From positions 1-64,000 of the forward strand of contig JANQFL010000024.1 in the NCBI GenBank assembly GCA_028277845.1: 64,000 bases of DNA, written 5' to 3'. The translations under genes and the position numbers were made by a program. The DNA is from Sneathiellales bacterium. GTDB lineage: Bacteria; Pseudomonadota; Alphaproteobacteria; JANQFL01. Shown here in pieces: positions 4,833 through 53,619 of the stretch (position 1 is the stretch's first letter; each line of letters starts with the position of its first letter). The notes beneath the pieces were generated by a model. It saw nothing but the letters and a program-made list of their open reading frames with translations. It was not told where the DNA came from and did no database searches.

Positions 4833-5602
4833 CTGCTTTCACGCTTTCCGCCATGGCGCAGGACGTGCACGTGGTTGGGGTCGTAGAGCGCGCTGTCGCG
4901 GAAATCATCCGGCGCCAGCACGTGGCCGACGATGACCAGGGCCGTGCGGGTGATCTTGGCGTCGCGGACCTGCTGGCGGATGGTCGACAGGGTGCCGCGA
5001 ATGACCTGCTCGTCCGGCCAGCTCGCCCGGTAGACCACGGCGACGGGGCAGTCTTCACCGTAGTGGGGGATGAGGTCGGCGCAAACCTGACGCAGGTTAC
5101 GGACCGACAGGTGTAGCGCCAGGGTGGCGCCGGACCGGCCAAGCGTTTCCAGGTCCTCGCCGTCGGGCATGGCCGACGACTTCATGGCGGTGCGGGTGAG
5201 AATGACCGTCTGGCTGACGTCGGGCAGGGTGAATTCGGTTTTCAGCGCCGCCGCCGCCGCCGCGAAGGCCGGCACGCCCGGCGTGATGTCGTAGTCGATG
5301 CCCAGCGCTTCCAGCCGGCGGATCTGTTCGCCGATGGCGCCGTAAAGCGACGGATCGCCGGAATGCACCCGTGCCACGTCGTGGCCGACCTCGTGGGCGG
5401 CGACGATTTCCGCAATGATTTCGTCCAGGTTGAGAATGGCCGTGTCGACGATCCGTGCGTCTTCCGGCGCCCACTCCACGACTTCGCCCGGCACCAGGGA
5501 GCCGGCGTACAGACAGACGGGGCAGGACGCGATCAGGTCGCGACCGCGGACGGTGATGAGGTCCGCGGCGCCCGGACCCGCGCCGATGAAATGCACCGTC
5601 AT
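4829..5602 (-). CDS. cobM: Precorrin-4 C11-methyltransferase
   Basis: CobM (CbiF in the cobalt-early route) adds the C11 methyl group. The tetrapyrrole methylase motifs [16 protein letters not shown] at the N-terminus and [13 protein letters not shown] further on are clear. I start it at ATG 5602, which overlaps the cobJ stop as ATGA. The longer frame to 5665 adds a sequence unlike the family. It is the last gene of the long minus-strand cob run. The substrate could be the cobalt-loaded or metal-free intermediate, which the sequence does not decide. Confidence 0.92.
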
Positions 5603-7422
5603 GCCGACAGATCCTGCATCACCGAATCCAACTTGCCCGCGTAACCCCGCGGCGTGTACATCCACTGCCGTCCGTCGGGCGTCGCGAACAGCCGTGTTTC
5701 GCTGGAGCCGACGAGAACCACCGTCAGCATATCGATGTCGGCGGGATCGAGTTCGGACAACGTTACGAAGCGAACCAGTTCGCCGTCCCGTCCGAGATTG
5801 CGCGCCAGGGCAACCGGCGTGTCCGCCGGGCGGTGTTCGAGCAGCACGTCGCGGGCATGGGCCAACTGCGTCGTTCTGCGGCGCGACACCGGATTGTAGA
5901 AGGCGATGACGAAATCCCCTTCCGCCGCCGCCTTGACCCGTTTTTGGATGGACGGCCAGGGCGTCAGCAGATCGGAGAGGGAGATGGTGCAGAAATCGTG
6001 GCCGAGCGGGGCGCCGGTGCGGGCCGCCGCCGCCTGCAAGGCCGACAGACCCGGTGCCACGGCCACATCGACCCGCTTCCAGGCGGGGGTATCGCCCTTG
6101 TCGAGCAGTTCGAACAGCAGCGTCGCCATGCCGTAAATGCCGGCATCGCCGGACGACACGAGCGCCACGCTGTTGCCGTCGGCGGCGATGTTCAGGGCGG
6201 CCCGGACCCGGTCTTCCTCCGCGCCGAGCGGGAAATCGTGCCGCTGCTTGCCGTCGATCGCCGACCCAAGCAGATCCAGGTAAAGACCATAGCCCACCAC
6301 GTGATCGGCGTGTCCGATGCAGGCGTCCGCCTGAGGCGTGCGCCAGGCGTCATCGCCCGGACCGATGCCGATGATGGCCACGCGGCCACGCGCCCGGCCA
6401 AATTGACCGGGATCCAGAAGATGTTCCGCTAGGGCGATGGCGCAGGTGGCGCGGGCGGATTTTTGCTTGGGCACGATCAGTTTGCCCGATGCGCCCACGG
6501 CGGCCAATGCCGCGCCTTCCGCCACGCCGTGGCAGCCGACCTCGCGGAAAACCTGTTCCGACGGCGTGTGCAGCCGCGGCGTTTCCGCTTCCAGCCTGTC
6601 GGCGCCGAACACCCGCACCGGAACACCGAGGGCATCGGCCACGGCGTGCACGGCCGGTTCGTCTTCCTTGAGATCGATGCTGACGATGGCCGCGACAGAC
6701 AGCGGCGACAGGCCGTACTCCGCGAGCGTCTCCATCACCAGGCCGATGACCTGTGCATCCGGCGTGTTCCGTTCGCAGCCAACGCCCACCGCCAGGTTTT
6801 GCGGGCGGTAGACCAGGGTGGTGGCATCGCTGCCCGGACCGGCAGCGTCGATACGGATCGTCAGGGCGCCGTCTTCGGCAACGGGCAGGTCCGATTGCGA
6901 AAGCCAATCAGTTGGGCTCTCGAGCCGCACGGACTGTCCGGCCAGCAATGCGGCCATGAAGGCCTTGGCGTGTTCCGGACCGTCGAGCACATAGCCGGGC
7001 GGCGGCTGGTCGAGCGCCACGCCGAACCGCAGATCGCCGGCCGTGGTAACGGCGGCGTCCACCTTCAGATGCTCGGCGATGGTCCGGGCCAGGTCGTTGG
7101 CGCCGTGGTGCCCGCCGAGCAGCGGAACGACTGCCGAACCGTCCTCGGCCACGGCCAGCACGGGCGGCTCGTAATGTTTGCCCGCCAGGGTCGGTGCCAG
7201 GGTGCGGATGAGAATGCCCGCGGCGCAGACGCCGACGATGCCCGTGCCTTCGGAAAAGAGTTCGGTCAGATGGCGGCCAGTGTCCCTGAACATCACATCG
7301 GCATCATCGACGCGGTCCTCCAATCCGTGGACACGGGCGTTCGGCAACCGACCGGCGATGGTGCGGCCGGTTTCGAGGGCCGAGGCGGTCAGAACGACGA
7401 CCGCGATTTCGGTTGCGTTCAT
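5599..7422 (-). CDS. cobJ: CbiG-CobJ fusion: lactone hydrolase plus precorrin-3B C17-methyltransferase
   Basis: The 607-residue product joins two enzymes. The N-terminal part (about 1-340) is CbiG-like, beginning [15 protein letters not shown]. CbiG opens the delta-lactone of cobalt-precorrin-5A and releases the C20 fragment as acetaldehyde. The C-terminal part (about 350-607) is a CobJ/CbiH tetrapyrrole methylase with [16 protein letters not shown] and [11 protein letters not shown], which drives ring contraction with C17 methylation. The start at 7422 overlaps the cobI stop as ATGA. The open frame extends to 7548, but the extension lies inside cobI. No CobG or CobZ is in the window, which agrees with CbiG chemistry. 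Confidence 0.9.
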
Positions 7423-8123
7423 TGCCAGGCCGCTCCGCGCTTGTGCACCAGAATGATGGAAAAATAGGGCACGTTGGTATCGTCCACATCCGACAGAGGC
7501 AGAACCTTTTGCTGGCTCATGGTGGCCCGTTCGACATAGCGGGCGCAATGGTCGAGCCCGAGATCGTTGAGCACGGCCCGGACCCGGGCGAAATGGCGGC
7601 CCACCTTGATGATCACGGCGGCGTCGGCGTCGGCCAGCCGGCGGCTGAGCGACGCGTCGTCCAGCGGCGCGGGAATCACCGTGAGGATGTCGTTGCGGGC
7701 GGCCAGGGGCGCGCCGAGAACGGCGGCGGCGGCGGTTAATGACGACACGCCGGGGATGACCTCGACCGGATATTGTTCCGCCATACGACCGAACAGGAAC
7801 ATGAACGAGCCGTAGAAAAACGGATCGCCCTCGCAGACGAAGGCCACGTCCCGGCCGGCCTGCAGGTGCGCGCCGATGTCGGCGACGGCCTTGTCGTAGA
7901 CGTCCTGGGCCGGAAAGCGGTCGACCACCATGGGAATGCGGATGACGACCTCTTCTTGCTGGCCCGATAGGTGCGGGTCGACGATGGCGCGGACCAGACT
8001 GTCGCCGTCGTCCGGCGCGGGATAGGCGAGCACCGGGACCGACTGCAAGACCTTGAGGGACTTGAGCGTGATGAGATCGGGATCGCCCGGTCCGGCGCCG
8101 ATGCCGTAAAGCGTGCCTGTCAT
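7419..8123 (-). CDS. cobI: Precorrin-2 C20-methyltransferase
   Basis: CobI (CbiL) methylates C20 of precorrin-2 or cobalt-factor II. The 234-residue protein shows YGIGAGPGDPDLITLKS at its start and CEGDPFFYGSFMFL mid-protein, both typical of this branch of the methylases. The start at 8123 overlaps the cobL stop as ATGA. The upstream frame to 8321 is inside cobL and is discarded. It acts directly after CobA. Confidence 0.93.
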   Translation of the reverse strand: MTGTLYGIGAGPGDPDLITLKSLKVLQSVPVLAYPAPDDGDSLVRAIVDPHLSGQQEEVVIRIPMVVDRFPAQDVYDKAVADIGAHLQAGRDVAFVCEGDPFFYGSFMFLFGRMAEQYPVEVIPGVSSLTAAAAVLGAPLAARNDILTVIPAPLDDASLSRRLADADAAVIIKVGRHFARVRAVLNDLGLDHCARYVERATMSQQKVLPLSDVDDTNVPYFSIILVHKRGAAWQ

Positions 8124-9319
8124 GACTTTCTGATACTCAACTGCGTAACGGTACGAAGGGGGGACCAGCCGTTGAAACGGCCGATCGGTTGGGCATGGGC
8201 AACGGAAAGGCGGGACAAATCGCCGCCATGCCGTGCATGCCAGTCCATCAGCGCCTGCTCGCCTTCCAGGGTGACGGCGTTGGCCACCATCCGCCCGCCG
8301 GCGCGCACCGCCTGCCAGCAAGCCGTCATCACCTCGGGAGAGGACGTGCCACCGCCGACGAAAACCGCATCGGGTTGCGGCAACCCCTCGAATGCAGCCG
8401 GGGCGTCACCATCGACGACGCCGAGCTGCGGGACGCCGAGATTGGCGGCGTTGTCGCGCATCATGGCGATGCGTCCGGCGTGCCGTTCGATGGCCGTGGC
8501 CGAACAGGAGGGGTGCGTGCGCAGCCATTCGATGGCGACCGATCCGCAACCGGCGCCGACATCCCACAAATGCTGGCCGGGAAGCGGTGACAGAGCGGCC
8601 AAGGTCGCCGCCCGGACCGCGCGCTTGGTCAGCTGGCCATCATGGGCGAAGGCGTCGTCGGGCAGGCCCGGTGCCCAGTGCGGTGCCGCATCTCCGGCGC
8701 ACAGGATGGCCAGGGTGTTGAAGTCGGCCGCCCGTCCGTGCGGCCAGGCCTCCGCCGAACCGGTGAGACGGTTTTCGTGGCCGCCGCCCATGCCCTCGAA
8801 TACCGTCAGGCGGCTGGCGCCGTACCCCTGTCCCGTCAGCAGCGCCGCAACGTCGGCGGGCGTACTGCCGTCGTTGCTGAGGGCGACGATACAGGCGCCG
8901 GGATACAGATAGCGGTTCAGGCCGGCGAGGGGGCGGCCGTGCAGGGTGACGGTGTGCACGGCATTGCGGTCCCAGCCCATGCGGCTGCAGGCCAGGCTGA
9001 AGGCGGACGGCGCGGGGATGACGGTCATTTCCTCCGCCGGAACGTGTTTCGCCAGGGTCACGCCGATGCCGTAGTTCATGGGATCGCCGGTGGCCAGGAC
9101 ACAGATGCGTTCTCCGCGCCGGGAGACGATCTCGTCGACCAGTTTGCCGAGCGGGTTCGGCCAGGACAGCCGTTCGCGGCCGTCATCGGGCACCATGGCC
9201 AGGTGACGTTCACCGCCGATCAGCACCGCCGCGCCATCGACCAGCGCGCGGGCGTCGGGTGACAGGCCGTCGAGACCCTGCTCGCTCAGACCGACGATGC
9301 TCAGCCAGCGCGCGCTCAC
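8120..9319 (-). CDS. cobL: Precorrin-6Y C5,15-methyltransferase (decarboxylating), CbiE-CbiT fusion
   Basis: The 399-residue protein is the usual two-domain CobL. The first half is a CbiE-type tetrapyrrole methylase (WLSIVGLSEQGLDGL, ATGDPMNYGIG). The second half is a CbiT-type methyltransferase with an SAM-binding glycine motif (LWDVGAGCGSVAIEW). It methylates C5 and C15 and removes the C12 acetate carboxyl. Start and stop both form ATGA overlaps with cobH and cobI, indicating tight translational coupling. Confidence 0.93.
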   Translation of the reverse strand: MSARWLSIVGLSEQGLDGLSPDARALVDGAAVLIGGERHLAMVPDDGRERLSWPNPLGKLVDEIVSRRGERICVLATGDPMNYGIGVTLAKHVPAEEMTVIPAPSAFSLACSRMGWDRNAVHTVTLHGRPLAGLNRYLYPGACIVALSNDGSTPADVAALLTGQGYGASRLTVFEGMGGGHENRLTGSAEAWPHGRAADFNTLAILCAGDAAPHWAPGLPDDAFAHDGQLTKRAVRAATLAALSPLPGQHLWDVGAGCGSVAIEWLRTHPSCSATAIERHAGRIAMMRDNAANLGVPQLGVVDGDAPAAFEGLPQPDAVFVGGGTSSPEVMTACWQAVRAGGRMVANAVTLEGEQALMDWHARHGGDLSRLSVAHAQPIGRFNGWSPLRTVTQLSIRKS

Positions 9320-9966
9320 CGCACCGATCCCGTGTCACCGTTGCCGCCGAGGGCATTGACGGCCGCCGCCGCCATGGCGCTGCCGCCGCGCCGGCCGCGC
9401 ACCGTCAGGTAAGGCACGCCAAAATCGCCGTTCACCAGGGCGTCCTTGGATTCCGCCGCTCCGACGAATCCGACGGGCAGGGCAAACAGGGCCGCCGGAC
9501 GGGCGCCTTCCTCGGCGATCATCTCGAGCAGCCGGAACAGGGCCGTCGGCGCGTTGCCGATGGCAATGACGGCGCCGTGCAGGCGCGGCCGCCACAGATC
9601 GACGGCCGCCGCCGATCGGGTGGTCTCCCGTTCCCGGGCCATGGCCCGCACGGCCGGGTCGTTCAGGGTGCAGATGACCGGGTTGTTCATCGGCAGCCGG
9701 TCACGGATGATGCCCTTGGCCACCATCTCGGCGTCCACCAGGACCGGCGCGCCGTTGTCCAGAGCGTGGCGGGCGTTCTCGGCCACGTCGGCCGTGTAGG
9801 ACAGGTCCTCGGTGACGTCGGTCATGCCGCAGGCATGGATCAGCCGCACGACGATTTCGGCGACATCCAGCGGCACGCCGCCGAGATCCGCCTCGGACCA
9901 GATGGTCGCGAAGGACTTGCGGTAGATCTCGGCGGGATCGCGCTCGTATTCCAAGGCCTGGGACAT
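9316..9966 (-). CDS. cobH: Precorrin-8X / cobalt-precorrin-8 methylmutase
   Basis: CobH (CbiC) moves a methyl group from C11 to C12 to give (cob)yrinic acid. The 216-residue length matches the family. The segment VVRLIHACGMTDVTEDL holds the catalytic histidine region, and PVGFVGAAESK is the second conserved stretch. It starts six bases after the cbiX stop and ends in an ATGA overlap with cobL. Confidence 0.93.
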   Translation of the reverse strand: MSQALEYERDPAEIYRKSFATIWSEADLGGVPLDVAEIVVRLIHACGMTDVTEDLSYTADVAENARHALDNGAPVLVDAEMVAKGIIRDRLPMNNPVICTLNDPAVRAMARERETTRSAAAVDLWRPRLHGAVIAIGNAPTALFRLLEMIAEEGARPAALFALPVGFVGAAESKDALVNGDFGVPYLTVRGRRGGSAMAAAAVNALGGNGDTGSVR

Positions 9967-9971
9967 GGACC

Positions 9972-11003
9972 TCAGTCGCTTTCCTTCATGGTCACCGGCC
10001 CCAAGGGATGGTCCGCGTGCGGGTAGGGGTGATGATGATGCCCGTGGTCATGCCCATGATCATGTCCGTGATCATGGTCGTGGTGGTGATCATGGCTGTG
10101 ATCATGGCTGTGGTCGTGGGCGTCACCGGTGCCGATCCCTTCCACATGGTGATGGTGGCTTTCCTGGCGCAGACCGACCTCGTCCTCGAAGCCGATGAAC
10201 TGCTCCCGGTATTTGCACAATTGGCAGTTCATGTTGTTGGTGCCGTCGAGAATTTCCTGCACCCGTTCGGCAAAGGCGTCGAGCACCTGGGGGTGGTCGT
10301 TGAGGTAGGGCACCTTGACGAATTCGATGTCGGGATGGCGCTCCGCGACCACGTCGGTGTAGTGGTAGATACGCTTGACCAGCACGCCGGTGAACAGGAA
10401 GTAGGGAAACACCAGCACGCGCTTGTAACCAAGACGCGCCACGTGTTCCAGACCCGGTTCGACCAGCGGGAAAGTGACGCCCGAATAGCAGGTCTCCGCC
10501 CAGGCGAAGCCCATGCCCTCCCACAACATGCGGGTGACCTTGGAGACATTGGAATTGGCATCGGGGTCGGATGCGCCGCGGCCGACAACGACCAATACGG
10601 TCTCCGTCAACGGCACGCTGTCGTCCAGCCCGGCCAGCGCACCCTCGATGCGGTCGCGGGCCGCTTTGAGCAGCTTCAGGTCGACACCCAGTTCCCGGGC
10701 GTAGTCAATGGTCAGGCCGTCGTGCTGTGCCTGATAGGCGTTGAGCACCGAGGGGATGTCGTTCTTGGCGTGGCCGGCGGCGAACAGCATGCCCGGCACG
10801 GCCAGGATGCGGCTGTGGCCCGATTCGCGCAGACGGTCGAGGCCGTCGCGGATGACCGGCGTGGCGAATTCGAGAAAGCCGGAGTCCACTTCGAACTGCG
10901 GCAGGCGTTCGGCGATGCCCTTGGCGACCGACTCGAATTCCTTGACGGCTTCCACGTCGCGGCTGCCGTGACCGCAGACCATAACGCCGGTTTTTCCACT
11001 CAT
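9972..11003 (-). CDS. cbiX: Sirohydrochlorin cobaltochelatase, CbiX long form with His-rich tail
   Basis: CbiX inserts Co2+ into sirohydrochlorin, the first committed step of the cobalt-early route. The 343-residue protein starts [16 protein letters not shown], with an active-site histidine context, and has the duplicated CbiX/SirB fold length. Residues 258-263 form M-N-C-Q-L-C, the MxCxxC signature of the long CbiX type that holds a redox iron-sulfur centre in characterised members. Residues about 283-332 are an exceptional His/Asp/Gly tail built of repeated HD, HG and HS pairs. The start at 11003 makes an ATGA overlap with cobQ. The longer frame to 11234 lies within cobQ. Confidence 0.92.
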
Positions 11004-26753: not shown

Positions 26754-26831
26754 CCGTTTCGGCCGAACAGGCCGTCAAAAGCGGCATTTCGTCTCTGGAC
26801 TCGCCATGGCCCGGCGGATAGTTTGCCGGCC

Positions 26832-28379
26832 ATGGTGGAGCATATCCTGATTATCGATTTCGGGTCGCAAGTGACCCAACTCATCGCCCGGCGCGTTCGC
26901 GAGTCGGGCGTTTATTGTGAGGTGGTCCCCTTCAACAAGTCGGACGAGGTGCTCGAGAGCTTCGCGCCCAAGGGCATCATCCTCTCCGGCGGACCGGCCT
27001 CGGTCCTCGACACGGGCACGCCACGAGCACCCCAGAAGGTCTTCGAGATGGGTGTGCCGGTGCTGGCCATCTGCTACGGCGAACAGACCATGTGCGCCCA
27101 GTTGGGCGGCCAGGTCGAACCGGCCGACCACCGGGAATTCGGCCGCGCCTTCATCGATATCGTCGCCGACTGCGACCTGTTCGAGGGTCTTTGGCCCGTG
27201 GGCGCCCGCGAGCAGGTGTGGATGAGCCACGGCGACCGGGTCATCGCGATTCCCGACGGCTTCAAGGTGGTGGCCACCAGCGACAACGCCCCGTTCGCCG
27301 CCATCGCCGACGACGACCGCCGCTTTTACGGCGTGCAGTTCCACCCCGAAGTGGTGCATACGCCGCAAGGCACCGCGCTGCTGCACAACTTCACCCACAA
27401 GGTGGTCGGCTGCTCCGGCGACTGGACCATGTCGGCCTTCCGCGAGCGGGAAATCGCCAAGATCAAGGAACAGGTCGGTGACGGCAAGGTCATCTGCGCC
27501 CTGTCCGGCGGCGTGGATTCGTCGGTGGTAGCGGTGCTGCTGCACGAGGCGATCGGCGATCAGTTGATCTGCGTCTTCGTCGACACCGGAGTCATGCGGG
27601 CCGGCGAGGCCGAGGAAGTGGTCGGCATGTTCCGCGACCACTACAACATCCGGCTGATCCACCGCGACGCCGTCGATCTATTCATGGACAAGCTGGCCGG
27701 TGTCTCGGACCCCGAACGGAAACGCAAGATCATCGGCGGCACCTTCATCGACGTGTTCGAGGAGGAGGCCAAGGGTATCGGCGGCGCCGACTTCCTGGCC
27801 CAGGGCACGCTGTACCCGGACGTGATCGAATCGGTGTCCTTCGCCGGCGGGCCCAGCGTCACCATCAAGTCGCACCACAATGTGGGCGGCCTGCCCGAAC
27901 GCATGAACATGAAGCTGGTCGAGCCGCTCAGGGAACTGTTCAAGGACGAGGTCCGCGAACTGGGACGCGAATTGGGTCTGCCCGAGAAGTTCGTCGGCCG
28001 CCATCCGTTTCCCGGCCCCGGCCTGGCCATCCGCATCCCGGGCGAGGTCACGCGCGAAAAGGCGGATATCCTGCGCAAGGCCGACGCCATCTACCTGGAG
28101 GAAATCCGCAACGCCGGCCTCTACGACGCCATCTGGCAGGCCTTCGCCGTGCTGCTGCCGGTGCGCACCGTCGGCGTCATGGGCGACGAACGCTCCTACG
28201 AACACGTCTGCGGCCTGCGCGCCGTCAACTCCACCGACGGCATGACCGCCGATTACTACCCGTTCCCCCACGACTTCCTCGGCCGCGTCGCCACCCGCAT
28301 CATCAACGAGGTGCGCGGCATCAACCGGGTGGTCTACGACATCACGTCGAAACCGCCCGGGACGATAGAGTGGGAGTAG
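26832..28379 (+). CDS. guaA: GMP synthase (glutamine-hydrolysing)
   Basis: GuaA converts XMP to GMP. The 515-residue protein is complete. The amidotransferase nucleophile is C81 ([10 protein letters not shown]) with a matching HPE motif, the ATP-pyrophosphatase loop is LSGGVDSSV, and the dimerisation domain ends in the normal KPPGTIEWE. The last 174 coding bases are repeated at 31695-31868. An island begins two bases after the stop, so this 3' end was probably supplied by the element. ATG 26832 is used; a TTG at 26823 is less likely. The final Ile codon is ATA, which is rare in this G+C-rich context. Confidence 0.96.
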
Positions 28380-28380
28380 G
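28206..28380 (+). repeat. Left 175-bp direct repeat (guaA 3' end, in the intact gene)
   Basis: This segment matches 31695-31869 at a constant offset of 3489 bases, with five substitutions and no gaps. All five fall at synonymous third codon positions (GAC/GAT, GAG/GAA, CGC/CGT, TAC/TAT, ATA/ATC). The match stops two bases beyond... the stop codon at its right side and at GTCTG on its left side. It marks the left junction of the guaA island. Confidence 0.95.
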
Positions 28381-28477
28381 AATACTTGTTGATCTTATTC
28401 TAGCGCATCTGATGCAATCGAGGGTGACGAAGGGTTAGCAACATTGTAGTATAAGTTGAGTCGCTTTGGGGGAAAAC

Positions 28478-29707
28478 ATGGCAGTCCGATATATGGGCAG
28501 CAAGAAGGCTCTAGCGCCTGAGATTTCACACATTATCTCAGAGCAAAATCCAACGGCTACAATCCTCGACGTTTTTGCTGGTATGTGCGCTGTTGGCACT
28601 CAAGTGGCCGCTAAACACAGATTGCTTACCAACGATGTCCATGCTTATGCTGCCACCGTCGCTTCTGCGCTTTTCACTGGTGCAGCTATTGGGCCAACTT
28701 CGATAGTAGCAAGAGAAGAGCTTCTTAGAAACTTCAATAGAAACAAGAAAGCTCTTGAAGGTGCTGTTGAATATCGTCTCCGCCAAGAAGATAAGTTCTT
28801 TTGCACGGAACGAGATTTATCATCTTGGCAAAAAGGACTGGAGTTCTATAGAAACGAAATAGCGCGCCCACCGGCTCGAAAGCTAGTGGGGTTATCGAAA
28901 ATTGCTGAGTATAAACAAGATCCGCACCTGTTTCCCTTTTGCTTAATTACTACTTACTTTGCAGGCGCTTATTTTGGTGTAAGACAATCCATAGAACTAG
29001 ATTCATTAAGATATGCGATAGAACTTGCGCCGAAAAAGAACAAGAATCGATACCTAGCTGCACTTATCGATGCCGCAAGTCGTTGTGCTACTGCGCCGGG
29101 TCACTTCGCACAGTTTCTTGTTCCCCGTAATCGAAAAACCTTCGCGTACGTCAGTCGAATTCGCTCTCGTTCAGTATTGGAACTCTTTTTTGATGCGCTG
29201 GATAATTTTCCAGATCCGAAATGTGCATTTCGGAGGCAAAATAAAGTCTATAACAACGAAGCGACCGCACTGCTTCAAGAAAATGTAGACGAGTTATCCC
29301 AAGTAGAACTCGTTATATATGCCGACCCGCCTTACTCCCGAGCGCAATATAGTCGCTACTACCATTTGCTAGAGACGCTCGTCCTTTACGATTATCCATC
29401 TTGTGACAGTAAGGGTCGATATCGAGCCGACCGCTTTAGTACTGACTTTTCATTGAAGTCAAAGGTTGTTGATGCCATGACTTCGTTCGCCGCTGCAGCC
29501 TCAAATACTGGTGGGAAGCTTTACCTGAGTTATCCGCGCAATGGATTGCTGTCATCGGTAGGAAGTGATGTGCAAGACATCCTTCGCCTACATTTTAAGC
29601 ACGTGAATGTGGCCACCATGCGTCCCCTAAAACACTCGACAATGGGAGCGGCACCAGGAGAGGCATCTCATCGTGTATGGGAGGATGTGTTCTATGCCAG
29701 CAACTAA
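28478..29707 (+). CDS. DNA adenine methyltransferase, D12-like
   Basis: The 409-residue product resembles alpha-class N6-adenine DNA methyltransferases. The N-terminal RYMGSKKALAPEI is the D12-type start. Residues 31-40 (DVFAGMCAVG) form the SAM-binding motif I, with TND (51-53) after it. D283-P-P-Y-S in VIYADPPYSRAQY is the catalytic motif IV. The long spacer between them would hold target recognition. ATG 28478 follows GGGGGA at good spacing; a TTG at 28466 is less likely. Codon use is A+T-richer than in the flanking genes, indicating transfer. It overlaps the ParB-like gene by 14 bases. The sequence specificity is unknown. Confidence 0.85.
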   Translation: MAVRYMGSKKALAPEISHIISEQNPTATILDVFAGMCAVGTQVAAKHRLLTNDVHAYAATVASALFTGAAIGPTSIVAREELLRNFNRNKKALEGAVEYRLRQEDKFFCTERDLSSWQKGLEFYRNEIARPPARKLVGLSKIAEYKQDPHLFPFCLITTYFAGAYFGVRQSIELDSLRYAIELAPKKNKNRYLAALIDAASRCATAPGHFAQFLVPRNRKTFAYVSRIRSRSVLELFFDALDNFPDPKCAFRRQNKVYNNEATALLQENVDELSQVELVIYADPPYSRAQYSRYYHLLETLVLYDYPSCDSKGRYRADRFSTDFSLKSKVVDAMTSFAAAASNTGGKLYLSYPRNGLLSSVGSDVQDILRLHFKHVNVATMRPLKHSTMGAAPGEASHRVWEDVFYASN

Positions 29708-30668
29708 ACCAAGCAATACTGTTGGTGAGCTAAAGGAAATTTCCCTGAACCTAATTGAGCGGAATGAGGGCAACCCGCGGCTCACATTCGAAGAACGTGC
29801 GATCGAACGCTTGGCAAATTCAATCGAAGAAATAGGACTTCTTGTACCAATCACTGTCTACGTGGGGAGGAAGAACGCGAGAAAGCCCTATACTTTGTTA
29901 GATGGAGAGCGTCGGTTCAGAGCGGCGAGACAAATAAACAAACCAACCATTTCTGCGCTCGTTGTTCCACGCCCTAGTCCCAAAGAAAACGCAGTGCGAA
30001 TGTTTAACATTCATATGTTGCGGGAGGATTGGGAGGAAATTGAGACCGCATGGGCACTGGAACATATCATGGAGCAAGCTGGGATTACGAAAGATCGAGA
30101 ACTTCATGAACTAACTGGCTTATCGGTAGACCGCATTCGTAATATGAAGCGTGTACTTCAATATCCTCGTGCTCTTCAAGAGCGAGTTGGTCGCGGGGAG
30201 CTAAAATATCAAATGCTGGTCGAACTCGACAAAAATATTCTTTCTCGAGAACCTGGGAAAACGAGCAAAAAAGGGAAGAAAGCTGTTTTGGATATGAGCA
30301 CATCGCAATTACGCGATGTTTTCCTCCAAAAATATGAGACAGGCGTTGAGAGTGACATCGTAGATCTTCGGCGCGTGGCTACGCTGATAGATACGGCTCG
30401 TGGCGAAGGAAAAGTAGCCAAACGAGCTCAGAAAGCTCTTGTCAAACTAGTGACGAAGCCGCAAGTGACTATCGAGGAATCTTATGAGATTGGAGCTGCT
30501 TCCAGCGTAGAGTTATCAAAAATTCTTCGCGACCTTAACGGTTTGCCAGGAAGAGTTGATGATCTGCTTGGTACTGTCAAACATCGGGAGGAGCGTGATC
30601 AGGTCGCACATGCATTGCGCACTGTCATTCGCCGGCTTCAAAAATCATATGAGCGTGCAGGTAGGTGA
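29694..30668 (+). CDS. ParB/KorB-like DNA-binding protein
   Basis: The 324-residue protein has a canonical ParB N-terminal domain. It contains NPR at 27-29, LANSIEEIGLLVPITV at about 40-55, the CTP-binding motif GERRFRAA at 71-78, and a box II-like NIHMLREDWEEIETA at 105-119. A helix-turn-helix like that of ParB/KorB follows (about 133-160). The C-terminal half is basic and helical with no recognised domain. The start is ATG 29694 with GGGAGG upstream, inside the methyltransferase gene. No ParA partner is present, so plasmid-style partition is unlikely. A role in DNA loading for the neighbouring enzymes is inference. Confidence 0.85.
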   Translation: MPATKPSNTVGELKEISLNLIERNEGNPRLTFEERAIERLANSIEEIGLLVPITVYVGRKNARKPYTLLDGERRFRAARQINKPTISALVVPRPSPKENAVRMFNIHMLREDWEEIETAWALEHIMEQAGITKDRELHELTGLSVDRIRNMKRVLQYPRALQERVGRGELKYQMLVELDKNILSREPGKTSKKGKKAVLDMSTSQLRDVFLQKYETGVESDIVDLRRVATLIDTARGEGKVAKRAQKALVKLVTKPQVTIEESYEIGAASSVELSKILRDLNGLPGRVDDLLGTVKHREERDQVAHALRTVIRRLQKSYERAGR

Positions 30669-31573
30669 TTGGAGATGCGATTTCAGAGATGCAGATAGCA
30701 GTAGGGGACTATCTGGCATCTGCTTATGGAGGATCTGTTGAGCCTGATGGGGTGGTCGGCACAGCAGTACCTTGGAGACCTCATATATTTCAAACTGAGG
30801 AGAGAATCGGGTGGCATTTGTTTTCAGTTCCTCCGGATTCAGATTCGTGGAAGCGACGCATTCTTCGTGCTTGTTCAGTTGATAAGAAACTAAAAATTGG
30901 CGTTGCTACTACTGAACTTGCTTTAGATGATCCAGGATTTCTCCTAGATTGCCAGGAGATTGATGCTCAGATCATTCTGATGGAGCACCGCAAAGGTCGG
31001 TTCGTGATCGTGACATCGTTTGCGTCGGTGTCAGACTACATCTACGAGCAAAATATCAACCTAGACATAGAAGTCTCGACCAGACTGCTGGATGACGCAT
31101 TGGCGCGTGCGTTGAAGGCGAAAGCCAATATTGAAAAAGGAGTGTTGCTAGAAGTTGTCGTAGCGCTTTTTTTAAGCCAAGTGACTAATTTCGAAGTTGC
31201 CGACGTAGGTATTTCTAACCGAACGCAACAAATGGATGTGCTTGTTCACAATCGAAATGTCGGGGGAGTGCTTGGGGATGGATCAATTGTGTTGGCAGAA
31301 GCAAAAAATTGGCGCCGACAAAAAGTGGGCACCGATGAGTACGCTGTGTTTTTACGGAAACTAGCTAGTCGAAACGGCAAAGCAAAACTGGGCTTCCTTG
31401 TGACGACTGGTGAATTTACCTCGGGCGTCGCCCTTGAGGCGAGACGCGACAGCATGGCTGACATCATTATTGTTTGTATCGATGGAAAAGTATTACCCAC
31501 TATTTGGCAAGGCAAAAAATCCATCACACAAGTGATAGAGAGATTGGTTATCCAGGCTAGTGTCGGTTCATAG
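30665..31573 (+). CDS. Mrr-like PD-(D/E)xK restriction endonuclease
   Basis: The 302-residue protein has an N-terminal region of about 150 residues that I do not recognise and a C-terminal nuclease fold. Catalytic residues can be placed at E163 (helix KGVLLEVVVAL), D191 (QQMDVLVHN) and the E212-A-K214 pair (LAEAKNWRR). The following LGFLVTTGEFTSGVALEAR matches the Mrr-type pattern after the QxK/ExK motif. The start is GTG 30665, overlapping the ParB-like stop by three bases. ATG 30689 is an alternative. Tight coupling to a DNA methyltransferase suggests a restriction role, but Mrr-type enzymes can also cut modified DNA. Confidence 0.8.
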   Translation: MIGDAISEMQIAVGDYLASAYGGSVEPDGVVGTAVPWRPHIFQTEERIGWHLFSVPPDSDSWKRRILRACSVDKKLKIGVATTELALDDPGFLLDCQEIDAQIILMEHRKGRFVIVTSFASVSDYIYEQNINLDIEVSTRLLDDALARALKAKANIEKGVLLEVVVALFLSQVTNFEVADVGISNRTQQMDVLVHNRNVGGVLGDGSIVLAEAKNWRRQKVGTDEYAVFLRKLASRNGKAKLGFLVTTGEFTSGVALEARRDSMADIIIVCIDGKVLPTIWQGKKSITQVIERLVIQASVGS

Positions 31574-31694
31574 CTAAGTTCCAAACGTAACGAACAATGA
31601 TCTTCCATTTTTTGTTTCGTTTGAGTTTGCTAGATAAACGGCGATTGTGATTTCCAATCCATTGAACTCAATCTCAACGGACGCTGGTACAAAT
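31574..31694 (+). other. Right end of island, non-coding
   Basis: These 121 bases lie between the nuclease stop and the right guaA repeat. They are A+T-rich and include a T-rich run (CATTTTTTGTTTCGTTT near 31607-31621) that could help end transcription, but no strong hairpin is seen. No inverted repeat shared with the left island end (28381-28477) is apparent. Confidence 0.4.
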
Positions 31695-31868
31695 GTCTGC
31701 GGCCTGCGCGCCGTCAACTCCACCGATGGCATGACCGCCGATTACTACCCGTTCCCCCACGACTTCCTCGGCCGCGTCGCCACCCGCATCATCAACGAAG
31801 TGCGTGGCATCAACCGGGTGGTCTATGACATCACGTCGAAACCGCCCGGGACGATCGAGTGGGAGTAG
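31695..31868 (+). pseudogene. guaA: Orphan guaA C-terminal remnant
   Basis: The frame encodes the last 57 residues of GuaA, up to KPPGTIEWE and a TAG at 31866-31868, with no 5' part of the gene. It happens to be open back to an ATG at 31647 in island sequence, giving a chimeric 73-codon frame. There is no convincing ribosome-binding sequence, and a lone dimerisation-domain fragment is not expected to be functional. Confidence 0.9.
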
Positions 31869-31869
31869 G
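31695..31869 (+). repeat. Right 175-bp direct repeat (displaced guaA 3' end)
   Basis: This is the second copy of the guaA 3' end, identical in protein sequence to the left copy but with five synonymous differences. It directly adjoins the host gene for the DUF465 protein and so probably represents the ancestral chromosomal end of guaA, displaced by the island. Confidence 0.95.
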
Positions 31870-52088: not shown

Positions 52089-52838
52089 GTGGCATCTGAG
52101 GGGCAGAAATCTTCCGGACTGGGCTTGCTTCGGCTGTTCGTCGGGTCGCTGCGGGACTTGTCCCCCATCGTCATCGTCGTCGCGTTTTTTCAGCTGGCCG
52201 TGCTGCAGCAACCGTTGCCCAATCTCGAAAGTACTTTGGTCGGCGCATTTCTCGTCGTCCTCGGCCTGACACTGTTCATCCAAGGATTGGAAATGGGGCT
52301 GTTCCCCCTGGGGGAGGCCATGGCTGATGCCTTCGCCCGCAAAGGCAGCCTCTTGGCCTTGCTGGCGTTCGGTTTCTGCCTCGGATTCGGCACAACGGTC
52401 GCCGAGCCGGCGCTCATCGCCGTCGCCAAGGAAGCGTCCGTCGTCGCGGCCGAGGCCCGCGTCATTGACGACACCGACGACGCGCGCGCGTCCTACGCCC
52501 TCGGATTGCGATTGACGGTCGCCGTCGCCGTCGGTGTGGCACTCATTGTCGGCGTGTACCGCATCATCAAGGGCTGGCCCATCCACTATCTGATTATCGG
52601 CGGATATGTTCTGGTCGTCGTCATCACATTCTTCGCGCCGCCCGAGATCATCGGCATCGCCTATGATTCCGGCGGCGTGACGACGTCGACGGTGACGGTG
52701 CCCCTTGTGGCGGCGCTGGGCGTCGGTCTTGCCAGCGCCATCCGGGGGCGGAACCCCATGATTGACGGCTTCGGCCTGATCGCGTTCGCCAGCTTGACCC
52801 CGATGATCTTCGTCATGATCTACGGCATGGTGGTGTGA
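52089..52838 (+). CDS. DUF1538 membrane protein, subunit A
   Basis: The 249-residue protein has about seven hydrophobic segments. Conserved motifs are [38 protein letters not shown] and [21 protein letters not shown]. The Gly/Ser/Thr-rich breaks within helices look like those of ion or solute carriers. It starts at GTG 52089. It is paralogous to the next gene, and the pair is followed by PII-like and CBS regulators. The family has no established function, and a two-subunit transporter is my inference. Confidence 0.8.
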
Positions 52839-52842
52839 CGCC

Positions 52843-53619
52843 ATGGACTTGATCCTGCATATCGTCAACGGCTTCGCCTCGACCGTTTTGGATGTTGCGC
52901 CGATCGTGGCCATATTGCTGGCGTTTCAGTTCGTCGTTATTCGCCGGGCGCCGCCCAATCCGCACCGCATTGTCATCGGATTCGTCTATGTGGTCGTCGG
53001 CCTGACACTGTTCCTGGTCGGGCTCGAGGAGGCCTTGTTCCCCATTGGCGAGGCCATGGCGCTGCAATTGACCCACCCGGCGTTTATCGGCACCGACGCG
53101 ACCGGGAACTGGACCTTGTATTACTGGGTCTACATCTTTGCGTTTGCAGTCGGGTTTTCGGCCACCGTCGCGGAACCGGCATTGATCGCCGTATCCCTGA
53201 AAGCACAACAGATTTCGGGTGGCAGCCTCAGCGCGGTTGGGTTGCGCCTCGCCGTCGCCGTGGGGGTTGCCGTTGGGGTGTCCGTCGGCACGTTCCGCAT
53301 CGTGACCGGCACGCCGATTCATTATTACATCATGGCCGGATACTTGATCGTCATCATTCAAACCATGCGGGCGCCGCGGATGATCATTCCGCTGGCCTAT
53401 GATTCAGGTGGTGTGACGACGTCGACGGTGACCGTGCCGGTCGTTGCGGCATTGGGACTTGGGTTGGCGTCGACCATCCCGGGGCGCAGCCCGTTGATTG
53501 ACGGGTTTGGTCTCATAGCGTTTGCGAGCCTGTTTCCTATGATGTCGGTGATGGGATATGCCCAGGTGGCCGATTTCCTCAATCGCCGGTCTCAACTCAA
53601 AGATGCCAAGCTGGAGTGA
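52843..53619 (+). CDS. DUF1538 membrane protein, subunit B
   Basis: The 258-residue product repeats the architecture of the preceding protein, with matching motifs [18 protein letters not shown] and [19 protein letters not shown] and a final [14 protein letters not shown]. It carries an extra aromatic loop (DATGNWTLYYWVYIFAF) after the second helix. It starts four bases after its partner's stop and ends nine bases before the PII-like ATG. The two proteins probably form a heteromeric membrane complex. Confidence 0.8.
   Translation: MDLILHIVNGFASTVLDVAPIVAILLAFQFVVIRRAPPNPHRIVIGFVYVVVGLTLFLVGLEEALFPIGEAMALQLTHPAFIGTDATGNWTLYYWVYIFAFAVGFSATVAEPALIAVSLKAQQISGGSLSAVGLRLAVAVGVAVGVSVGTFRIVTGTPIHYYIMAGYLIVIIQTMRAPRMIIPLAYDSGGVTTSTVTVPVVAALGLGLASTIPGRSPLIDGFGLIAFASLFPMMSVMGYAQVADFLNRRSQLKDAKLE

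Follow-up and report, generated by a model that had tools for sequence, protein, structure and literature searches.

Organization of the locus

The stretch of DNA analysed here (64,000 nt from contig JANQFL010000024.1 of a Sneathiellales bacterium, hereafter the window) carries an operon of three overlapping genes on the same strand, coding for a D12-class DNA methyltransferase, an orphan ParB-family protein and an Mrr-like nuclease (Table 1). The host genome is 98% complete, and is the only one representing its family and order in our genome collection. The initial annotation, made from the sequence alone, had described the three genes as a candidate defence or restriction-modification (R-M) module, and both the open reading frames (ORFs), with overlaps of 14 nt (methyltransferase/ParB) and 4 nt (ParB/nuclease), and the motifs cited for the three proteins were recovered. 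The first overlap becomes 23 nt if an alternative in-frame ATG at position 29685 is the start of the ParB gene. No sigma-70-like promoter was found in front of the operon. The palindrome GCATCTGATGC upstream of it is a possible operator; it matches once in the window and at least once in 20 out of 100 shuffles, and is thus not distinguishable from chance.

Table 1 Features of the operon and of the element carrying it, in window positions.
Feature	Position	Strand	Description	Evidence
guaA (GMP synthase)	26823..28379	+	Intact; 3′ end is the insertion site	ORF and protein match
guaA 3′ end, repeat copy 1	28206..28380	+	175 nt	Direct repeat, 97%
GAGTGGGA core, copy 1	28368..28375	+		Read in sequence
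Inserted element	28376..31864	+	3489 bp core to core, about 46% GC; cargo is the three genes only	
Palindrome GCATCTGATGC	28405..28415	+	Upstream of operon; possible operator	Within chance
D12-class DNA N6-adenine methyltransferase	28478..29707	+	409 amino acids; YMGSK, DVFAGMCAVG, ADPPYS	PF02086, alignments
Orphan ParB-family protein	29694..30668	+	ParB_N + HTH_ParB; NPR, DGERRF, FNIHMLR; no ParA motif	
Mrr_cat-like PD-(D/E)xK nuclease	30665..31573	+	302 amino acids, GTG start; E163, D191, E212-A-K214	
guaA 3′ end, repeat copy 2	31695..31869	+	Far boundary of element	97% identical to copy 1
GAGTGGGA core, copy 2	31857..31864	+		Read in sequence

The three-gene module is the whole cargo of an element imported into the 3′ end of guaA and bounded by a duplication of that end, whose second copy the initial annotation had missed. 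The guanine plus cytosine (GC) content falls from about 65% outside (67% in guaA) to 41–50% between the repeat copies, and rises again past copy 2. The copies differ at five positions (28238, 28310, 28316, 28337 and 28367), which leave the end of the GuaA protein unchanged. Since every one of them is a third codon position, both copies appear to have diverged while each belonged to a functional guaA gene, and the additional copy probably came from another lineage. The GAGTGGGA core is the one published for the guaA-targeting integrase of GIsul2 (PMC9376610). The element therefore resembles the islands known to integrate in guaA (GIsul2, and the integrative and conjugative elements of Mesorhizobium, PMC8627217) in its insertion in the guaA 3′ end and in the presence of GAGTGGGA in both copies, but it is just 3.5 kb long, lacks an integrase, a relaxase and transfer genes, and has a far longer repeat (175 nt).

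Neither an Rfam family nor a tRNA was found at the guaA insertion site, and no integrase or other recombinase inside the element. The whole host genome has two Phage_integrase matches, XerD (over the NCBIfam cut-off) and a XerC-like protein (XerC being its best model, below the cut-off), so that the host has no resident guaA integrase from that family. The cassette may travel as a recombinase-less islet at the guaA 3′ end, mobilised by an integrase acting in trans or, alternatively, by homologous recombination on the guaA end. Scans of the viral_contigs collection with the single methyltransferase and nuclease proteins, and with the nuclease alignment, returned nothing. In the plasmid and phage collections only distant methyltransferases and ordinary ParB proteins were found, with no relative of the nuclease past one 29% partial match, and none of the eight plasmid neighbourhoods inspected holds the three-gene unit. 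Considering these results, the element looks neither plasmid- nor phage-borne.

Conservation of the methyltransferase-ParB pair

The methyltransferase alignment was used to scan 84,980 species genomes, and the ORFs neighbouring the best 80 of the 442 relatives (a lower bound, since the scan pattern was one short peptide) were compared with the ParB protein and the nuclease of the window. A ParB of the same subfamily is adjacent to, or one gene off from, 12 of the 20 closest methyltransferases; the genomes of these 12 belong to at least three phyla. Amongst those ranked 21 to 80 there is no such ParB, except for one weak and distant match (28 bits, L061). Together with the window (W), this makes 13 units (L017–L020, L022, L024–L027 and L034–L036 being the other genomes). 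The cassettes are all about 3 kb, and most are low-GC islets amid high-GC DNA, although L020 and L019 are much less so. No flanking repeats beyond chance length were found around the cassettes of the relatives, which indicates that the guaA duplication belongs to the window copy and not to the family. The distances between the methyltransferases of the 13 units correlate with those between their ParB proteins (r = 0.64, a value reached in none of 5000 label permutations), indicating at the level of sequence that the two proteins have diverged together. The effector types mostly fall in matching groups in the two trees; L019 and L025 are placed differently, so some exchange has occurred. The ParB protein and the methyltransferase are thus a constant core that is not tied to Mrr. 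The initial annotation had proposed to test whether homologues of the three genes occur together as a unit in defence islands, and would have been refuted had they rarely been neighbours. The unit does recur across phyla, but the usual defence island is not what surrounds it, the module of the window being a lone islet at guaA.

The first protein matches MethyltransfD12 (PF02086, 55.9 bits, Pfam), and a DNA methyltransferase is therefore present. Its best matches in PADLOC are type II methyltransferases; the match to PD-Lambda-5_B (PDLC04018) is partial (25.3 bits), and other MTase_II models score higher. No sequence relative was found in the PDB for either the methyltransferase or the nuclease. 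The methyltransferase belongs to the wider D12 branch that contains the BglII/BstYI type II R-M systems (25–29% identity), in whose neighbourhood there is no ParB, and whose endonuclease is of another family than that of the window.

Other relatives of the methyltransferase have different neighbours. Three close ones in Mesorhizobium, Hephaestia and Sphingomonas (L021, L023 and L030, about 4986–10328) have no ParB, and belong to a four-gene unit whose other members are a calcineurin-like phosphoesterase with a wHTH-Calcineurin_assc domain, a putative ATPase and one further gene. This unit may be a related defence system. In Clostridia (L028, L031, L032, L037, L040, L049 and similar, about 4950–7860) the methyltransferase lies within a frame of about 970 amino acids, and is likely to be a fusion with a further domain. 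On plasmids (L010 and L008), D12 methyltransferases from the wider family are found near DGQHR-domain genes, which we take from the published classification to be DndB-like and another branch of the ParB fold. The pairing of a ParB fold with this methyltransferase family may therefore have arisen more than once.

The ParB-family protein

The second protein matches ParB_N (57.1 bits) and HTH_ParB (23.8 bits) in Pfam, and TIGR00180 (ParB/RepB/Spo0J) over the NCBIfam cut-off. ParB proteins are CTP-gated sliding clamps that act in chromosome segregation. Box I (NPR) and Box II (DG[EQ]RR[FW]) are kept in all 13 ParB proteins, while in each of them F[NQA]IHxxR stands in place of the ENxxR of Box III, according to an alignment to the Caulobacter ParB. 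Box III is often divergent in orphan ParB folds, which can bind CTP, ATP or GTP, and whose sequence does not predict the nucleotide bound (PMC12704722); the replacement does not, therefore, exclude membership of the ParB-CTPase fold. The protein resembles these orphans, as well as Noc, KorB and BisD, in having an N-terminal ParB fold, a helix-turn-helix (HTH) and no ParA motif, and differs in its changed Box III. The main text of PMC12704722 names fusions to methyltransferase and HNH domains, but not to Mrr or HEPN.

One could suppose that the ParB gene is a remnant of plasmid partition or replication, lying by accident beside an R-M pair. The ParB_N + HTH_ParB architecture and the TIGR00180 match would suit such an origin, as would the best single ParB matches in plasmids, which are partition proteins adjoining ParA. 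This explanation is nonetheless highly improbable and already largely refuted. The initial annotation had counted the lack of ParA against partition; no ParA gene adjoins the operon, the ParA-binding motif is absent in 13 out of 13 proteins, and no match to the canonical parS 16-mer was found in the window within 3 mismatches (other parS types fall outside that search). The islets of the relatives are also free of plasmid genes, the pairing with the methyltransferase is fixed over phyla, and a further and stronger ParB is encoded elsewhere in the host genome, on contig C65.

The nuclease and the exchangeable third gene

Four of the units have an Mrr-like third gene (W, L017 from Burkholderiaceae, L018 from Sphingomonas and L020 from Actinomycetota), the last three nucleases being 26–43% identical to that of the window. 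The residues named in the initial annotation (E163, D191 and E212-A-K214) are present in the window protein; E163, D191 and K214 are invariant in the alignment of the four homologues, and E212 is found in three of them. An AlphaFold2 model based on these four sequences (predicted local distance difference test, pLDDT, 84.7) has an N-terminal alpha/beta domain (about 1–130) followed by a C-terminal nuclease core (about 135–275), with helices at 135–151, 155–171 and 223–234, and strands at 176–183, 190–196, 208–214 and 241–247. The alpha-beta-beta-beta-alpha-beta arrangement of this core places the acidic residues and the lysine as a PD-(D/E)xK site needs. The operon of the methyltransferase thus includes a protein with endonuclease-type catalytic residues (E163, D191, ExK) on a nuclease-type core. 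A Foldseek search of the model against the PDB found nothing significant over the whole chain. RPB5 (probability up to 0.99) and, more weakly, Card1 and the nickase Nt.BspD6I were matched in part, which agrees with a nuclease-type fold without proving it. The catalytic-domain family is shared with Mrr and type IV restriction, from which the unit differs in having the methyltransferase as an invariant partner; to our knowledge, type IV systems have no cognate methyltransferase.

In four other units (L022, L024, L034 and L035) the third gene codes for a HEPN-like candidate RNase of 281–283 amino acids, in which RNxxSH is invariant and the C-terminal half is helical. These proteins have no Pfam match; their model (pLDDT 64.8) gives weak Foldseek matches to the HEPN proteins 2q00, 1ylm and 6m6w (E 0.4–1.6). 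In a further four (L025, L026, L027 and L036) the third gene is a PRTase-CE (119–147 bits, cut-off 27), and the gene order is ParB-PRTase-methyltransferase in three of them. The third gene of the Conexibacter unit (L019, 7163–8011) has no family match and contains RIRVAH; its product is possibly another HEPN-like effector. The type of third gene follows the branches of the ParB tree. Homology between the N-termini of the Mrr-type and HEPN-type proteins, considered because of a shared W-x-P, is unsupported (hhalign probability 4.7%).

This exchange bears on the simplest explanation of the operon, namely a conventional type II R-M pair with an endonuclease of the same specificity, the ParB protein being only a transcriptional regulator similar to a C protein. 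Plasmid relatives of the methyltransferase do adjoin small HTH regulators and restriction enzymes of the BglII/BstYI type, transcriptional regulation is a function of KorB-type ParB proteins (PMC12704722), and the tight gene overlaps fit a co-regulated R-M operon. The same core is, however, found with HEPN-like and PRTase-CE proteins, which cannot be site-matched endonucleases, so that there is no constant pairing with such an enzyme. In addition, the ParB protein has diverged in step with the methyltransferase and is present in 13 out of 13 units regardless of the third gene, and the model gives the nuclease an extra conserved N-terminal domain. We therefore regard a conventional pair as unlikely. 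The plain R-M logic that the initial annotation saw in a methyltransferase next to a nuclease is not supported in that form, since the third gene comes in at least three interchangeable types, of which the nuclease is only one.

Other islets at the guaA 3′ end

A 57-amino-acid query for the guaA end was compared with 385 genomes of the class, followed by targeted inspection. It matched in 288 of them, more than once in about 17. In about 15 genomes a truncated guaA end lies 0.7–5.9 kb downstream of guaA, twice in tandem; some of the weak, short fragments could be chance matches or decayed copies. The islets inspected were those of the window, L136 and L139–L151. Their cargo includes a MazE-like protein and a PIN protein (a VapBC-type pair) with an AbiJ_NTD4-like protein below cut-off (L136), PIN proteins (L141 and L146), an HTH_3 protein (L145), and a Type ISP R-M system with AbiJ_NTD3/Abi_C (L150), together with ordinary genes (FkbM, MauJ and others). 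No obvious recombinase was seen among their ORFs, by inspection only. The guaA 3′ end is thus a recurrent landing place for tiny islets in this class, and as several of the cargoes are of the toxin-antitoxin or defence kind, a defence reading of the window cargo becomes more likely, if unproven.

Elsewhere in the window (52254–53569), two adjoining direct repeats of 71 and 199 nt (70–73% identical, spacing 736) point to the tandem duplication of a gene or domain, apparently one of a membrane protein.

Relation to known systems

The closest system with tested activity is PD-lambda-5, an Escherichia coli prophage system with broad anti-phage activity, described as a compacted combination of R-M and abortive infection (RM+Abi, PMC9519451). 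Its two co-directional genes share with the units described here a D12-family methyltransferase, a ParB-fold protein and a HEPN-like part. The match of the window ParB to PD-Lambda-5_A (PDLC03999) in PADLOC covers 52 residues only (16.1 bits), and does not place it in that family. In one relative of PD-lambda-5 (L099), a D12 methyltransferase adjoins a ParB-like protein whose C-terminal part is helical. This relative differs from the window in that the ParB-like part is fused to the C-terminal domain and scores below the Pfam ParB_N cut-off, the methyltransferase is short and Dam-like (273 amino acids), and there is no separate nuclease. The C-terminal part of a second relative (L097) has a weak Csm6-HEPN match. 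By analogy, PD-lambda-5 lends support to a defence reading of the window unit. Operons of the HEPN MAE_28990 family “with a ParB nuclease and DNA methylase genes” have also been mentioned, in one table row (PMC3710099, 2013). Compared by description alone, their genes are of the same three types (ParB, DNA methylase and an exchangeable toxin-type effector); their effector is HEPN, and no Mrr or PRTase-CE version is described there. The combination of ParB, methylase and effector is thus thinly documented already, and the window system is not entirely new in kind. No description was found in the open-licence literature of the versions with Mrr and PRTase-CE, of the exchange of effectors on a single core or of the guaA islet lacking a recombinase.

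A further alternative is an abortive-infection or guard system, in which the pair would restrain a toxic effector, or sense the inhibition of methylation or interference with DNA-protein contacts, so that release of the effector would kill or stall the infected cell instead of cutting foreign DNA only. The literature on conflict systems counts HEPN and PRTase-CE among the suicidal effectors, PD-lambda-5 is itself called RM+Abi, and the same kind of guaA slot holds toxin-antitoxin and Abi genes. The effector of the window is, however, a predicted DNase, which fits direct restriction as well, and a guard of this kind is in our view rather improbable.

Proposed function

The reading we prefer, and to which we give about an even chance on the sequence evidence, is that of a compact modular immune cassette, in which the methyltransferase and the ParB protein form a self/non-self core serving an exchangeable effector. 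The D12 methyltransferase would mark adenines at a target site in the host DNA. The role of sensor or licence would fall to the ParB-family protein, which has an HTH and a nucleotide-binding fold. It would load on DNA that is unmodified or invading, at a site that may be the same as the methylated one or linked to it, and by closing its clamp in a nucleotide-gated manner it would recruit or activate the effector, here the putative Mrr-like PD-(D/E)xK DNase. As the core is constant and the effector variable, the self/non-self decision would have to lie in the core, where the ParB protein alone combines a sequence-specific DNA-binding domain with a predicted nucleotide switch. This makes it the natural reader of unmodified DNA, and probably the trigger of a modular antiviral defence. 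Three features favour a defence role, namely the location in an islet, the fold of the nuclease and the defence-type proteins that can replace it as third gene. The exchange of effectors is typical of defence systems (PMC10853773, PMC12839542).

Several observations weigh against this reading. Most homologous loci have the module as an isolated islet with no known defence genes adjoining, and the Mrr_cat match of the third protein (21.3 bits, Pfam) is just above the cut-off of 21. The L020 nuclease has a T in place of E212, and so lacks the glutamate of the ExK motif; it may be inactive. With ENxxR replaced, clamp-type CTP hydrolysis by the ParB protein cannot be assumed, and it could be only a regulator of the operon. 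Overall, what the initial annotation observed is confirmed, and its interpretation is supported in part.

A bolder version of the proposal is that of an undescribed immune class, in which a nucleotide-gated ParB clamp is the self/non-self sensor and, together with a dedicated adenine methyltransferase, licenses one of several interchangeable effectors (Mrr DNase, HEPN RNase or PRTase-CE), spreading as recombinase-less cassettes, which in this genome would use a duplicated guaA end. We consider this doubtful. If the ParB protein is kept with the modification enzyme while the killing enzyme is swapped, clamp loading and sliding would have been taken over for immunity, which would be a mechanism beyond the type I–IV restriction scheme. 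The 13 units across phyla provide a ready set for assays of one core with three different effectors, and the guaA islets suggest a simple route by which small defence and toxin-antitoxin genes may spread without a recombinase of their own.

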